From Candidatus Aminicenantota bacterium (lineage in GTDB: Bacteria; Acidobacteriota; Aminicenantia; Aminicenantales; Aminicenantaceae), in NCBI GenBank assembly GCA_016783445.1, contig JADHWO010000020.1:1-36310 (forward strand): a DNA stretch of 36,310 nucleotides, given 5' to 3'. A model generated the notes under the pieces. The model did no database searches. It saw only the letters and a list, made by a program, of their open reading frames with translations, and was not told the origin of the DNA. Shown one piece after another: positions 280 to 5,495 of this stretch (positions within the stretch are counted from its first letter, which is position 1; every line of letters starts with the position of its first letter). The position numbers were made by a program, and so were the translations under genes.

Positions 280-1902
280 ATGGAAAAGAGCAGGAATATC
301 AGGAATTTTCCCCTGGTAAATGCCATTAAAAGAGCCTATAAAGCCGGCCAGGAAGATGAGGCTTTAGAGCCGATTGTTGTCGTTGATCCTTCGGACAATC
401 CTCTGGGAAGGTTTAAAGATGGAGACTCGGTTATTTTTTATGACATACGGGGGGAGAGGGAAGCGGAAATAACCAGGAGTCTTATTGATCAAAATTTTAC
501 TCATTTCACCATAAATAAAGATCTTAAGCTGAATTTTGTGACCATGATTGAGTATGATTCCTCACTCGACGTAAAAGTAGCTTTTCCTTCGGATGGGGAA
601 ATTAAAAATACACTTGCTGAAGTTATTTCTAAGGCAGGGATTAACCTGCTTAAGATTTCTGAATCCGAAAAAGAGATCCATGTGGGTTTTTTTATGAACG
701 GAAAAAGTGAAAAAATCTTTCCAGGGGAGAAAAGGATAGTTATTCCATCACCGCAGGATGTTTCTTCTTATGCTCTTAAGCCAGAGATGAGTGCTGCTCA
801 GGTTACAGAAGAAATTTGCTCAAATCTTAAAAATCCTTCTTATCGGATAATAATAGCTAACCTGGCAAACGTGGATGTAGTGGGACATATCGAGGATAAA
901 GCTGCAGTGCTTCGGGCTGTGGAAGAAGTTGACCTCCAACTGGGAAAGATAATCGACAGTTGCCGCAACCTGGGTGTTGCTCTTGTTGTAACATCAGACC
1001 ATGGGACAGTAGAAGAATGGTTTTATCAGGAAGGGACGGTTAATACTGGACACACTAAGAATCCTGTCCCGTTTGTTCTGGCTGATTTTTCCTCTGAAGA
1101 TCCAAAGTGCTGGAGTTTTAAAAAAGAAGGGGAACTTGCCAATGTTGCTCCCACTATTTTGGCGTTATTGGGATTGACAAAGCCTCCGGAGATGACCGGA
1201 GAGAGCTTAATTCTTAATTTTCCCGAGGAAGAAGAAACAGAGAGAAAAGTGCTTCTTCTTATTCTGGATGGATGGGGAAAAAGAGAAGAAAAAGAAGGAA
1301 ATTTAATCACGGAAGCTAAGACTCCAAACTTTGATAAACTGTTGTCTTTTTATCCTCATGCCTTGCTCAAGGCTTCAGGAGAAGTTGTGGGAATGCCAGC
1401 CCAAACCGTGGGAAATTCAGAAGCCGGGCATCTCCACATTGGAGCTGGTAGGAGGGTCCTGCTTGACCGGGTCAGGATTGACAAAACTATAGAAGATGGA
1501 AGCTTTTTCCGTAATAATTCTTTTCTCTGGGCTATGGAGGAAGCAAAAAGAAACAATAAGTCGCTTCATCTTTTAGGAATTGTATCCAAATATAGTTCCC
1601 ACGGCACAATAAAGCATCTTTTGCCTTTGCTTCAATTAGCCAAAAAACTCGAGGTTGAGCAAGTCTTTATACATTCTTTGATCGGGCGAAGAGGGGAGAG
1701 GCCTGAAAGCGGGGCGGTTTATGTCTCCAAAGTCCAGGAAATGTGTTTGTCTCTTTCCATTGGTGAAGTTGTGACTGTTATGGGAAGATTCTGGGCCCTT
1801 GACAGGGAAGAGAACTGGGACAGAGTGGAAAAAGCTTACAGGGCATTAGTTTATGGAGAAGGGATTCCTGTTTCTTCCTTTAACGAGATAGGTATGATAT
1901 AA
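280..1902 (+). CDS. Circularly permuted 2,3-bisphosphoglycerate-independent phosphoglycerate mutase homolog
   Basis: 540 aa. Canonical C-terminal motifs come first: DGDSVIFYDIRGER, FVTMIEYD, VAFPSDGEIKNTLAEVISKAG, ESEKEIHVGFFMNG, PSPQDVSSYALKPEMSA, ANLANVDVVGH, TSDHG, NTGHTKNPVPF, APTILALLGL..PEMTGESL. Canonical N-terminal motifs follow: KVLLLILDGWGKREEKEGN, AKTPNFDKL, SGEVVGMPAQTVGNSEAGHLHIGAGR, GRFWALDREENWDRVEKAYRALVYGEG. Confidence 0.93.
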   Translation: MEKSRNIRNFPLVNAIKRAYKAGQEDEALEPIVVVDPSDNPLGRFKDGDSVIFYDIRGEREAEITRSLIDQNFTHFTINKDLKLNFVTMIEYDSSLDVKVAFPSDGEIKNTLAEVISKAGINLLKISESEKEIHVGFFMNGKSEKIFPGEKRIVIPSPQDVSSYALKPEMSAAQVTEEICSNLKNPSYRIIIANLANVDVVGHIEDKAAVLRAVEEVDLQLGKIIDSCRNLGVALVVTSDHGTVEEWFYQEGTVNTGHTKNPVPFVLADFSSEDPKCWSFKKEGELANVAPTILALLGLTKPPEMTGESLILNFPEEEETERKVLLLILDGWGKREEKEGNLITEAKTPNFDKLLSFYPHALLKASGEVVGMPAQTVGNSEAGHLHIGAGRRVLLDRVRIDKTIEDGSFFRNNSFLWAMEEAKRNNKSLHLLGIVSKYSSHGTIKHLLPLLQLAKKLEVEQVFIHSLIGRRGERPESGAVYVSKVQEMCLSLSIGEVVTVMGRFWALDREENWDRVEKAYRALVYGEGIPVSSFNEIGMI

Positions 1903-1980: not shown

Positions 1981-2889
1981 ATGAGTATTGAAGTTAAGGA
2001 TATCCATTTCAGCTACGGAAAGATAAAGGCTCTTGAAGGTATTACCCTTGATCTGTCTCAGGATGCAATTGGCCTTCTGGGACCAAACGGGGCAGGAAAA
2101 AGCACTCTGATTCGCATCCTCCTCGGATTTCTTTGTCCGGATAAGGGAGAGGGACGCATTCTTGATTATGATATTAAGCAACAGCAGTCCTTTATTCGGA
2201 GGTATGTGGGCTATATGCCAGAGGATGACTGTTTTATTCCTGAACTGGATGCTGTTTCATTTACTTCTTATCTTGGTGAATTATCAGGAATGCCGCGACA
2301 GGAAGCCATGAAAAGAGCACATGAAGCCCTTTTTTATGTTGGGCTTGAAGAAAGCCGCTACCGGAAAGTGGAGACATATTCCGGGGGAATGAAACAGAGG
2401 CTCAAACTGGCACAGGCGATTGTCCATGACCCAAAACTCATGTTTCTCGATGAGCCGACAAGCGGTTTAGACCCCCAGGGTAGAAACGAAATACTGGAAC
2501 TTATTGTGGATATTTCTTCAAAAAAAGGTATCCAAGTCTTGATTTCCTCTCATATCCTTCCCGATATAGAATTAACCTGTTCCTATGTCGTGATTTTAAA
2601 CAAAGGTAAACTTGCAGCACAGGGGGAAATCAGCAAGCTCAAGGAAATAAGAGACCTTTATGAGATTAAGATAAAAGGTGAATCAGAGGGCTTTCTTCAG
2701 AAGTTGAGAGACATAAAGTGTAGAGTGGAGAAAATGGAAGAGGGATTACTAAAGGTTTATTTGCCTCCAGATCAGGACAAACAGGAAATTTTCAGGATTG
2801 CTGCTGAAAAAAATGTGCAAATGAGACATTTTGTAAAAAGTGAGTCTTCTCTCGAGGACCTGTTTGCCAAAGTGGTGGGAGTGGATTGA
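1981..2889 (+). CDS. ABC transporter ATP-binding protein (ABC-2 exporter type)
   Basis: Walker A GPNGAGKST, signature YSGGMKQR, Walker B LMFLDEPTSGLDP, switch SSH. Confidence 0.96.
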   Translation: MSIEVKDIHFSYGKIKALEGITLDLSQDAIGLLGPNGAGKSTLIRILLGFLCPDKGEGRILDYDIKQQQSFIRRYVGYMPEDDCFIPELDAVSFTSYLGELSGMPRQEAMKRAHEALFYVGLEESRYRKVETYSGGMKQRLKLAQAIVHDPKLMFLDEPTSGLDPQGRNEILELIVDISSKKGIQVLISSHILPDIELTCSYVVILNKGKLAAQGEISKLKEIRDLYEIKIKGESEGFLQKLRDIKCRVEKMEEGLLKVYLPPDQDKQEIFRIAAEKNVQMRHFVKSESSLEDLFAKVVGVD

Positions 2890-3758
2890 TGACCATCAAA
2901 GAGAAAGGGTATGCACACTGGGATGGAGAATTCCTTGATAAAAAATTTCCCTGGTGGCCAATTACCCGGTACGGGATAAAATTAACTTTCAGGAGAAAAC
3001 AATTCAAGTTTATCTTTCCTTTGAGTCTTCTTCCTGCTGTATTTTTTCTGGCCGGGATTTATGTTTCAGAGAGGTTAGAGGATTTTCCCTTCTTCGGAAG
3101 AGAGACCGTAGAGTTTCTTCAGATCAATCCGAGCTATTTTAAAGCTTATTTAGCCTCCAGCTTTATGATTTTTTTAATTGTCATCATTGTGATTTTTTGC
3201 GGTTCAGGCCTAATCTGTGATGACCTCAAACATAATGCTCTCCAGCTTTATTTTTCCCGTCCTATCAAAAAAAAGGACTATTTTTTTGGGAAAACGGCTG
3301 TTATAGTTTTTTTTCTGTTCATTTTGACCCTCGTTCCTGGTCTTGTCTTTTTTATCATGAAACTCGTTTTCTCAGGAAGTTTTAAATTTTTTGTTTCCTA
3401 CCCCTGGCTTCCTCTCTCAATCATTGGCTATTCGGTTGTTGTGACAGCTTTTTTCTCCTTTTTTACACTTTTCCTTTCTTCTCTCAGCAAGAACAGAAGG
3501 TATGTGACGATTCTTATTTTTGGCACTTATATTCTTTCTGATATCTTTTACAGGATTTTTTATGATATTTTTAGTAATCATTATTTTTCGCTTCTTTCCT
3601 TAAGAGCCAATCTGCAGCAGGTGGGGGCGGTTTTTTTCAGCCAGAAGACACCGTATCCTATACATTGGATTTATTCTCTCTTGGTTCTTTCTGGCATTTG
3701 TGTTTTAGCTGGCTTTGTTTTGAAAAAGAAAGTTAAAGGCGTTGAAATAGTAAAATGA
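2886..3758 (+). CDS. ABC-2 type permease
   Basis: Multi-TM protein overlapping the upstream ATPase by ATGA; SGLICDDLKHNALQLYFSRPIKKKDYFFGK is typical of ABC-2 permeases. Confidence 0.9.
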   Translation: MMTIKEKGYAHWDGEFLDKKFPWWPITRYGIKLTFRRKQFKFIFPLSLLPAVFFLAGIYVSERLEDFPFFGRETVEFLQINPSYFKAYLASSFMIFLIVIIVIFCGSGLICDDLKHNALQLYFSRPIKKKDYFFGKTAVIVFFLFILTLVPGLVFFIMKLVFSGSFKFFVSYPWLPLSIIGYSVVVTAFFSFFTLFLSSLSKNRRYVTILIFGTYILSDIFYRIFYDIFSNHYFSLLSLRANLQQVGAVFFSQKTPYPIHWIYSLLVLSGICVLAGFVLKKKVKGVEIVK

Positions 3759-4681
3759 AAACAGTTATTGAGACAAAAAAGCTTTCTAAATGGTACGGGA
3801 ATGTATTGGGTTTGAGTGATGTCTCGCTCCAGATAGAAGCTGGGATTACAGGAATTCTGGGGCCAAACGGAGCTGGAAAATCAACTTTTTTAAAACTAAT
3901 AACCGGGCAAATAAAGCCAAATATCGGCAGCTGTACGATAGAAGGACAAAAAATCAGGAACAATTATCACTTCTATTCTAAAATTGGTTTTTGCCCGGAG
4001 CAGGATTCCTTTTATGAAGAAATGACAGGCTGGCAGTTTATGACCGGCCTTTTAAAGTTACACCATTATTCTCCATCTGAGATCAAAGCCATGACAAAAG
4101 AGGCTCTGGAGATTGTCGAGTTGACTGAGGATAAAGACAGGGTCATAAAGTCTTACAGCCGTGGTATGCGTCAGAGGTTAAAGTTTGCACAGGCCATAGC
4201 TCATAAACCAGAAATCATAGTTTTTGACGAGCCCTTAAATGGCCTGGATCCCCTTGGGAGACGGAAGATAATCCGCCTCATAAAATCCTATGAGGAAGAA
4301 GGGAAAACGATCCTTGTTTCCAGCCATGTTCTTCCTGAGATAGAAGCAATGACCAAACAGATTATTCTTATCCATCAGGGTAAAGTTTTTGCCCAGGGCG
4401 ATATACACTACATCAGAGACTTGATCGACACCCATCCTCATATTGTTTCGATTAAATGCAGAAATCCACGCCAGTTGGCTTCAACCTTCATCCAGGAAGA
4501 CTATGTATTAAATATTCATTTTGGCTCTGCAGACAACACTCTATTAATTGAAACCAACAACAGGGATAAGTTTTTCAGTCTCTTGCCTTCTCTTTTTGTA
4601 AAATACAATATCGAAGTGGATGAGATCACTTCGCCCGATGATAATCTGCAGGCTGTTTTTGATTACCTTGTAGAGAAGTGA
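3755..4681 (+). CDS. ABC transporter ATP-binding protein
   Basis: GPNGAGKST, SRGMRQRLKFAQAIAHKPEIIVFDEPLNGLDP; ATGA overlap with the preceding permease. Confidence 0.95.
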   Translation: MKTVIETKKLSKWYGNVLGLSDVSLQIEAGITGILGPNGAGKSTFLKLITGQIKPNIGSCTIEGQKIRNNYHFYSKIGFCPEQDSFYEEMTGWQFMTGLLKLHHYSPSEIKAMTKEALEIVELTEDKDRVIKSYSRGMRQRLKFAQAIAHKPEIIVFDEPLNGLDPLGRRKIIRLIKSYEEEGKTILVSSHVLPEIEAMTKQIILIHQGKVFAQGDIHYIRDLIDTHPHIVSIKCRNPRQLASTFIQEDYVLNIHFGSADNTLLIETNNRDKFFSLLPSLFVKYNIEVDEITSPDDNLQAVFDYLVEK

Positions 4682-4682
4682 G

Positions 4683-5495
4683 ATGAATAAAATAACTGTG
4701 AGAAGATTGCTGTTTTTATGGAATTCTATAAGAAAGGTTTATTCCTTTTTCTTCTTCATGGGGAAAAAATCGAATAAGACAAAGATTTTTTTCATAGTAG
4801 CTTTGTTACCAGTTATAATGGCGTTGATCATTAAATTAAATCCTATATTTTCTGGCCGGAGTAGCACCGAGGGAATTTATATTTTTTCCAACGTTATAAT
4901 TGTGTTCTATCTCCAGGCACTTATCCTTCTCCTGGCTCTTTTTTTCGGAACATCGGTCTGTTCGGAAGAAGTGGAGGGAAAAACGCTGACTTATCTAACC
5001 ACACGGCCGGTTTCAAAATCCGCCATCATACTTGGTAAGTACGCGGCTTATACATCTCTTGTTATACTGATGACTGGAATTGGAGTGACTATTTCGTTTT
5101 TAATCCTAAATGTGAACAAGTTGCATGATTTTTCCCTGTATGAAATTCTTATAAGAGATGTGATTGTTTTGAGTTTGGGGATTATGTGTTATACAGCGCT
5201 TTTTACATTTGTCGGAACTTTTTTAAAAAAATCGATTTTGTTCGGATTTGTTTTTGGCTTTGGCTGGGAAAATGTAATCCAGTATTTTCCCGGTTCAACT
5301 CAGCGCTTTTCCATTGTTCATTATCTCAAGTCACTGCTTCCGGTTCCAAAAACAGGGAGGTTTTCCTTTTTGATGTTCAAGTTGGAACCCAGTACTCCGG
5401 TCGCCGCGGTCTTTATGCTTTTTCTTATCACAGGCATTTTTCTTGGTTTAGCCTGCCTGTTTTTTTCTCTGAAAGATTATATTTTTGAAGATTAG
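4683..5495 (+). CDS. ABC-2 type permease
   Basis: Multi-TM; CSEEVEGKTLTYLTTRPVSKSAIILGKY motif; directly downstream of an ATPase. Confidence 0.9.
   Translation: MNKITVRRLLFLWNSIRKVYSFFFFMGKKSNKTKIFFIVALLPVIMALIIKLNPIFSGRSSTEGIYIFSNVIIVFYLQALILLLALFFGTSVCSEEVEGKTLTYLTTRPVSKSAIILGKYAAYTSLVILMTGIGVTISFLILNVNKLHDFSLYEILIRDVIVLSLGIMCYTALFTFVGTFLKKSILFGFVFGFGWENVIQYFPGSTQRFSIVHYLKSLLPVPKTGRFSFLMFKLEPSTPVAAVFMLFLITGIFLGLACLFFSLKDYIFED

Follow-up and report, generated by a model that had tools for sequence, protein, structure and literature searches.

Can the two halves of cofactor-independent phosphoglycerate mutase (iPGM) exchange places in the chain, and does an enzyme built in this way still interconvert 2- and 3-phosphoglycerate (2-PG and 3-PG)? 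Both questions are raised by an open reading frame (ORF) close to the start of the window, the whole 36,310-nucleotide stretch of DNA analyzed here from a Candidatus Aminicenantota bacterium. iPGM is a textbook case of one domain inserted in another, its active site being put together when the domains close, and a natural family of inverse topology provides a ready-made experiment on whether the insertion matters for folding and closure. In the canonical enzyme, two hinge peptides connect the phosphatase domain to the transferase domain (PMC5382265).

Domain order of the permuted ORF

Profile and phmmer searches assign the ORF to the iPGM family, with its parts arranged as follows.

269–273, + strand: plausible ribosome-binding site AAGGA, 6 nt 5′ of the ATG (from sequence only)
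280–1902, + strand: ORF (540 aa) encoding the circularly permuted member of the iPGM family
316–594, + strand: transferase domain, second part, now N-terminal; aa 13–105, canonical ~218–310; has R57 and R60 (Arg261 and Arg264)
595–1215, + strand: phosphatase domain, large part; aa 106–312, canonical ~311–511; has K131, D199, H203, D240, H241 and H258
1216–1245, + strand: linker NFPEEEETER, aa 313–322, joining the old C-terminus to the old N-terminus; varies among homologs
1246–1461, + strand: phosphatase domain, first part; aa 323–394, canonical ~3–76; has D330 (metal) and S380
1417–1419, + strand: Ser380 in GNSEAGH, the nucleophile Ser62 of Bacillus stearothermophilus iPGM; invariant in 94 of 94 permutants
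1462–1863, + strand: transferase domain, first part, now C-terminal; aa 395–528, canonical ~77–210
1591–1605, + strand: YSSHG, aa 438–442, vs. canonical GGVHS; H441 (His123 equivalent) retained
1684–1695, + strand: GRRG, aa 469–472, vs. canonical DGRD; Gly472 replaces Asp154 in all 94 permutants

In phmmer comparisons with the B. stearothermophilus PDB chain 1ejj, residues 321–528 of the query align with chain residues 3–210 (8e-58) and residues 14–312 with 218–510 (3e-56); overall, residues 13–312 correspond to canonical ~218–511 and residues 323–528 to canonical 3–210. TIGR01307 and PF06415 likewise match ORF 280–1902 in two order-swapped pieces, with TIGR01307 covering nearly the whole enzyme and scoring 500 bits against a cut-off of 331. 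The domain order of the permutant is T2-P2-P1-T1 (T, transferase; P, phosphatase), vs. P1-T-P2 in canonical iPGM, and the new termini fall at canonical ~210–218, within the transferase domain. With both halves order-swapped in one ORF, the old termini joined and the new termini at a single site, these alignments identify ORF 280–1902 as a true, complete natural circular permutant of iPGM.

The sequence-only reading of this locus had proposed that the old N- and C-termini are fused by about 10 residues, that residues ~106–394 form one contiguous phosphatase domain, and that the transferase domain is divided between both ends of the chain. The fusion is borne out by the uninterrupted frame (window 1201–1269 is stop-free and reads ESLIL-NFPEEEETER-KVLLLILD), the 10-residue linker and the swapped-order 1ejj matches. 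The extent given for the phosphatase domain is right, because the canonical hinges at 76/77 and 310/311 map to 394/395 and ~105/106, and the 1ejj match places the transferase pieces at aa 13–105 and aa 395–528.

Predicted structure, linker and selection

The AlphaFold2 model of the permutant (64-sequence alignment) has a mean pLDDT of 92.2 and a pTM of 0.86, with very low confidence at the new ends only. All 22 significant Foldseek matches in the PDB are iPGMs; the individual alignments comprise ~235–326 columns with TM values up to 0.52, their partial coverage (~300 residues) being expected when a sequential aligner meets a permuted chain. From the model, we infer that the permutant adopts the usual iPGM shape of two domains.

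The native termini can evidently be bridged by ~10 residues, as had been supposed: 6–16 residues span the junction in many species, and the AlphaFold2 model is confident through it. Across 95 homologs the linker has a median length of 10 and is 6–16 residues long in 92, the outliers being 22, 26 and 58. The longest belongs to a permuted iPGM at L205:5544–7265, and those of 26 and 22 residues to L112 and L114, respectively. The description of the linker as acidic holds for ORF 280–1902, in which NFPEEEETER has a net charge of −4, but not for the family: the net charge ranges from −4 to +5 across the 95 homologs and is positive in 67, zero in 12 and negative in 16, ruling out acidity as a conserved feature.

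Median dN/dS values from 13 Aminicenantia genes, which are approximate as dS is near saturation and of which only the contrast between regions counts, are 0.20 and 0.08 in the transferase pieces, 0.11 in each phosphatase piece and 0.67 in the linker. The earlier proposal depended on both halves being under purifying selection, which is evident in this contrast (~0.08–0.20 vs. 0.67), and on these estimates both halves are maintained and the linker is a loose connector. A decaying pseudogene is ruled out by the selection on both halves together with the invariance of the catalytic residues in 94 of 94 permutants.

Active site and substrate pocket

Asp154 of iPGM contacts the glycerate hydroxyls. 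Nine residues of B. stearothermophilus iPGM have been described as substrate contacts: S62, H123, R153, D154, R185, R191, R261, R264 and K336 (PMC3886921). Eight of the nine are unchanged in all 94 permutants, D154 being the exception; its position holds Gly in 94/94 permutants and Asp in 36/36 canonical sequences, which include iPGMs from the same class and from permutant-carrying genomes. The metal ligands (D12, D403, H407, D444, H445 and H462) and the Ser62 nucleophile are invariant in 94/94 permutants, and of the 16 positions checked for a catalytic, substrate or metal role, 15 have the B. stearothermophilus residue throughout.

Other changes fixed in the permutants include V122S, S124G, D151G, G152R, F258Y, D263E, A265E, M404V, G409E, N447T and M451W. 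In all, 14 fixed positions switch between the two classes, and 12 of them are no more than five residues away from an active-site residue, a clustering with p = 1.7e-6 when compared with all columns and 0.003 when compared with columns conserved in both groups. This is the mark of a subfamily whose substrate pocket has changed, not of drift.

Other phosphoglycerate mutases in carrier genomes

The permuted gene is the sole iPGM gene of the host genome, which also contains a full-length archaeal-type apgM at G000:C23:22043–23161; this rules out the permutant as the host's sole phosphoglycerate mutase (PGM), and the same applies to nearly all other carriers. apgM is above cut-off in 52 of 60 relatives, and aPGM appears sufficient for glycolysis in the host's order, because relatives with >90% complete genomes that lack the permutant retain it. 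Among carriers elsewhere, apgM is over cut-off in 10/12 and 24/26 genomes, the set of 26 including two genomes from the host's family; G571 has apgM in two pieces, and G324 has a canonical iPGM. Searches for canonical iPGM and aPGM found neither type in the carrier MAG G146. With the exception of G324 and G146, the carriers tested from other orders gave aPGM matches, of which nearly all exceed the cut-off; most carriers within the order gave them as well, and permuted and canonical iPGM occur together in nine confirmed genomes. In almost all carriers, the permutant is thus an extra enzyme. Neither this second PGM nor the fixed change at Asp154 had been noticed in the sequence-only reading. Four Syntrophia genomes (G554, G572, G574 and G514) contain at least three PGM-type genes, combining the permutant with two or three aPGMs or with two canonical iPGMs.

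Proposed function and alternatives

We favor, with some reserve, the interpretation that the permutants are iPGM-family phosphotransferases of single origin with an altered acceptor pocket, probably acting on another or a modified substrate and not as the main glycolytic 2-PG/3-PG mutase. The permutation would have arisen once and then spread, by inheritance and by transfer, among bacteria that are mostly uncultured. D330, D199, H203, D240, H241 and H258 would hold two metal ions that activate Ser380, which would take the phosphoryl group from a phospho-carboxylate, as in normal iPGM chemistry; the substrate, held by R471, R503, R509, R57, R60, H441 and K131, would turn, and the phosphoryl group would then be handed back. 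The likely substrate would be a related phosphorylated hydroxy-acid, different from or modified relative to 2-PG and 3-PG; a different substrate seems most likely given that Asp154 is fixed as Gly with concerted changes in its neighbors and that almost all hosts tested contain a further PGM. The chances are about even for a stronger version, in which the permutants are a distinct family with a substrate that is not 2- or 3-phosphoglycerate, created by one circular permutation plus pocket remodeling, present in several phyla and masked by equivalog HMMs. The TIGR01307 equivalog score sums both swapped pieces and is for this reason well above its cut-off, and such a score would conceal both the permutation and the pocket change from automated annotation as 'iPGM'.

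The main alternative is an ordinary PGM with a permuted chain, in which the loss of Asp154 is compensated by neighboring residues and the protein serves as an isozyme beside the host's other PGM. Some organisms do keep redundant PGMs, and with eight of the nine contacts to the substrate retained, ordinary PGM activity would fit the sequence; all metal ligands are also retained in 94/94 permutants, the score of 500 bits exceeds the NCBI iPGM equivalog cut-off of 331, and the carrier G146 has no other PGM in the canonical iPGM and aPGM searches. However, Asp154 is present in 36/36 canonical sequences and lost in 94/94 permutants, along with D151, G152, V122 and other pocket residues, and nearly all carriers have aPGM or canonical iPGM, so that we consider an ordinary PGM unlikely, if still a serious contender. 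Much less probable is a phosphatase that keeps the phosphoserine half-reaction but whose acceptor side is unable to return the phosphoryl group, so that the substrate is hydrolyzed: the Ser/metal center is intact and a substrate-contacting Asp is lost, as this would have it, but the transferase domain is strictly conserved throughout, five Arg and His123 included, with purifying selection in both of its pieces, and a pure phosphatase would not need it.

Distribution and origin of the permutants

The permutant is present in 43 of 60 relatives, as one collinear match of >460 residues with 56–76% identity. In class and phylum scans it is common in the host's order; beyond it, G100 represents another order within the class, G170, G182 and G194 a second lineage within the phylum, and G358, G324 and G482 are single occurrences. 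The other iPGM-bearing Acidobacteriota have the canonical order and ~40% identity. It is found further on GTDB contigs named Candidatus Aminicenantes, candidate division B38, Deltaproteobacteria and Syntrophaceae, and on GTDB MAG contigs labeled Armatimonadetes, Gemmatimonadetes, Zixiibacteriota and Methanomassiliicoccales. Full-length permutants were detected in 60 of 155 genomes of the Syntrophia class, to which the Syntrophaceae genome belongs; those of Thermoplasmata and Zixiibacteriota look like transfers, because just 1/200 and 1/133 genomes, respectively, carry one. Viral contigs gave no match, and every plasmid match listed was of the canonical kind, in two pieces.

Carriers assembled as a single contig include G012, G024 and G148. 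The window opens on the first base of contig C9, with the gene 280 nt further on, but a chimeric assembly or a misjoined contig is so improbable that it can be set aside, because the junction lies within the ORF and recurs, in collinear homologs, in dozens of independent assemblies, several of them single-contig, with genomes of 3.2–4.4 Mb among these.

For phylogenetic analysis, 94 permuted sequences were rotated to the canonical order and combined with 36 canonical sequences. In these quick tree searches, in which long branches meet at the permuted/canonical split, the two groups (94 vs. 36) divide on one branch with an SH-aLRT of 100; a mixture-model tree that includes four canonical outgroups gives the same picture, with the permutants of Syntrophia in a clade (99) separate from those of Aminicenantia. 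A single origin of the permutants appears well supported and uncontradicted, with no dated history implied. Within the open-licence literature, we found no description of a permuted iPGM or of a permuted member of the alkaline-phosphatase superfamily. Among the canonical iPGMs, those of L162–L164, L166–L171, L073 and L074 have a deletion after MDRY of GRYYAMDRDxRW and constitute a separate canonical subtype.

Gene neighborhoods

In Aminicenantia, two ABC-transporter ATPase/permease pairs lie downstream of the permutant and an M23 peptidase is often upstream. Both pairs are located directly 3′ of the permutant in the window (1981–5495) and are conserved through Aminicenantia, and their permeases match ABC-2 families. 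Most Syntrophia loci have a Macro-domain gene (O-acetyl-ADP-ribose deacetylase-like) downstream and a divergent series of DUF6665, PCMT, NlpD-like M23 and radical SAM genes beside the permutant; at L188:2387–8909 and its equivalents (L174–L192, L203 and L208), CarD-like (by eye), radical SAM, NlpD-like M23, PCMT and DUF6665 genes are divergent from the permuted iPGM and the Macro-domain gene. In the Methanomassiliicoccales MAG, two ORFs at L201:8261–9953 closely follow the permuted iPGM on its 3′ side, a possible operon; the second encodes a small P-loop ATP-binding protein, and the downstream ATP-binding gene of this archaeal MAG has weak adenylate-kinase similarity. No gene neighbor is common to all lineages among the Aminicenantia, Syntrophia and other loci compared. 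The neighborhoods differ between lineages, and the attempt to name the substrate from them therefore failed.

Comparison with known systems

The permutant is probably an unrecognized enzyme with a somewhat different job, present in dozens of mostly uncultured bacteria. If its substrate has changed, many genes may be misannotated as glycolytic enzymes, and Aminicenantia and Syntrophia would carry out a phospho-acid conversion that has yet to be discovered.

The closest known system is canonical iPGM/GpmI (TIGR01307, PF06415 + PF01676; 1EJJ/1O98), with which the permutant shares the same two domains, the Ser nucleophile, the metal ligands and eight of nine substrate contacts, with ~38% of the residues in the aligned segment identical to those of 1EJJ. 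It differs in its permuted chain, with new termini at canonical ~210/218 and the old termini joined by ~10 aa, in the replacement of Asp154 by Gly together with ~13 further fixed changes, most of them near the active site, and in forming a separate clade. Archaeal-type aPGM (TIGR00306) belongs to the same metalloenzyme superfamily and is matched weakly and locally by the permutant (37 bits), but its architecture differs and nearly all carrier genomes have a gene of its own for it. Phosphopentomutase and the phosphonoformyl transferase PhpG give weak HMM matches in the metal-binding half, with scores far below their cut-offs, and we know of no permutation of this kind in either. The iPGM-like fold has been re-used by other enzymes for other substrates.
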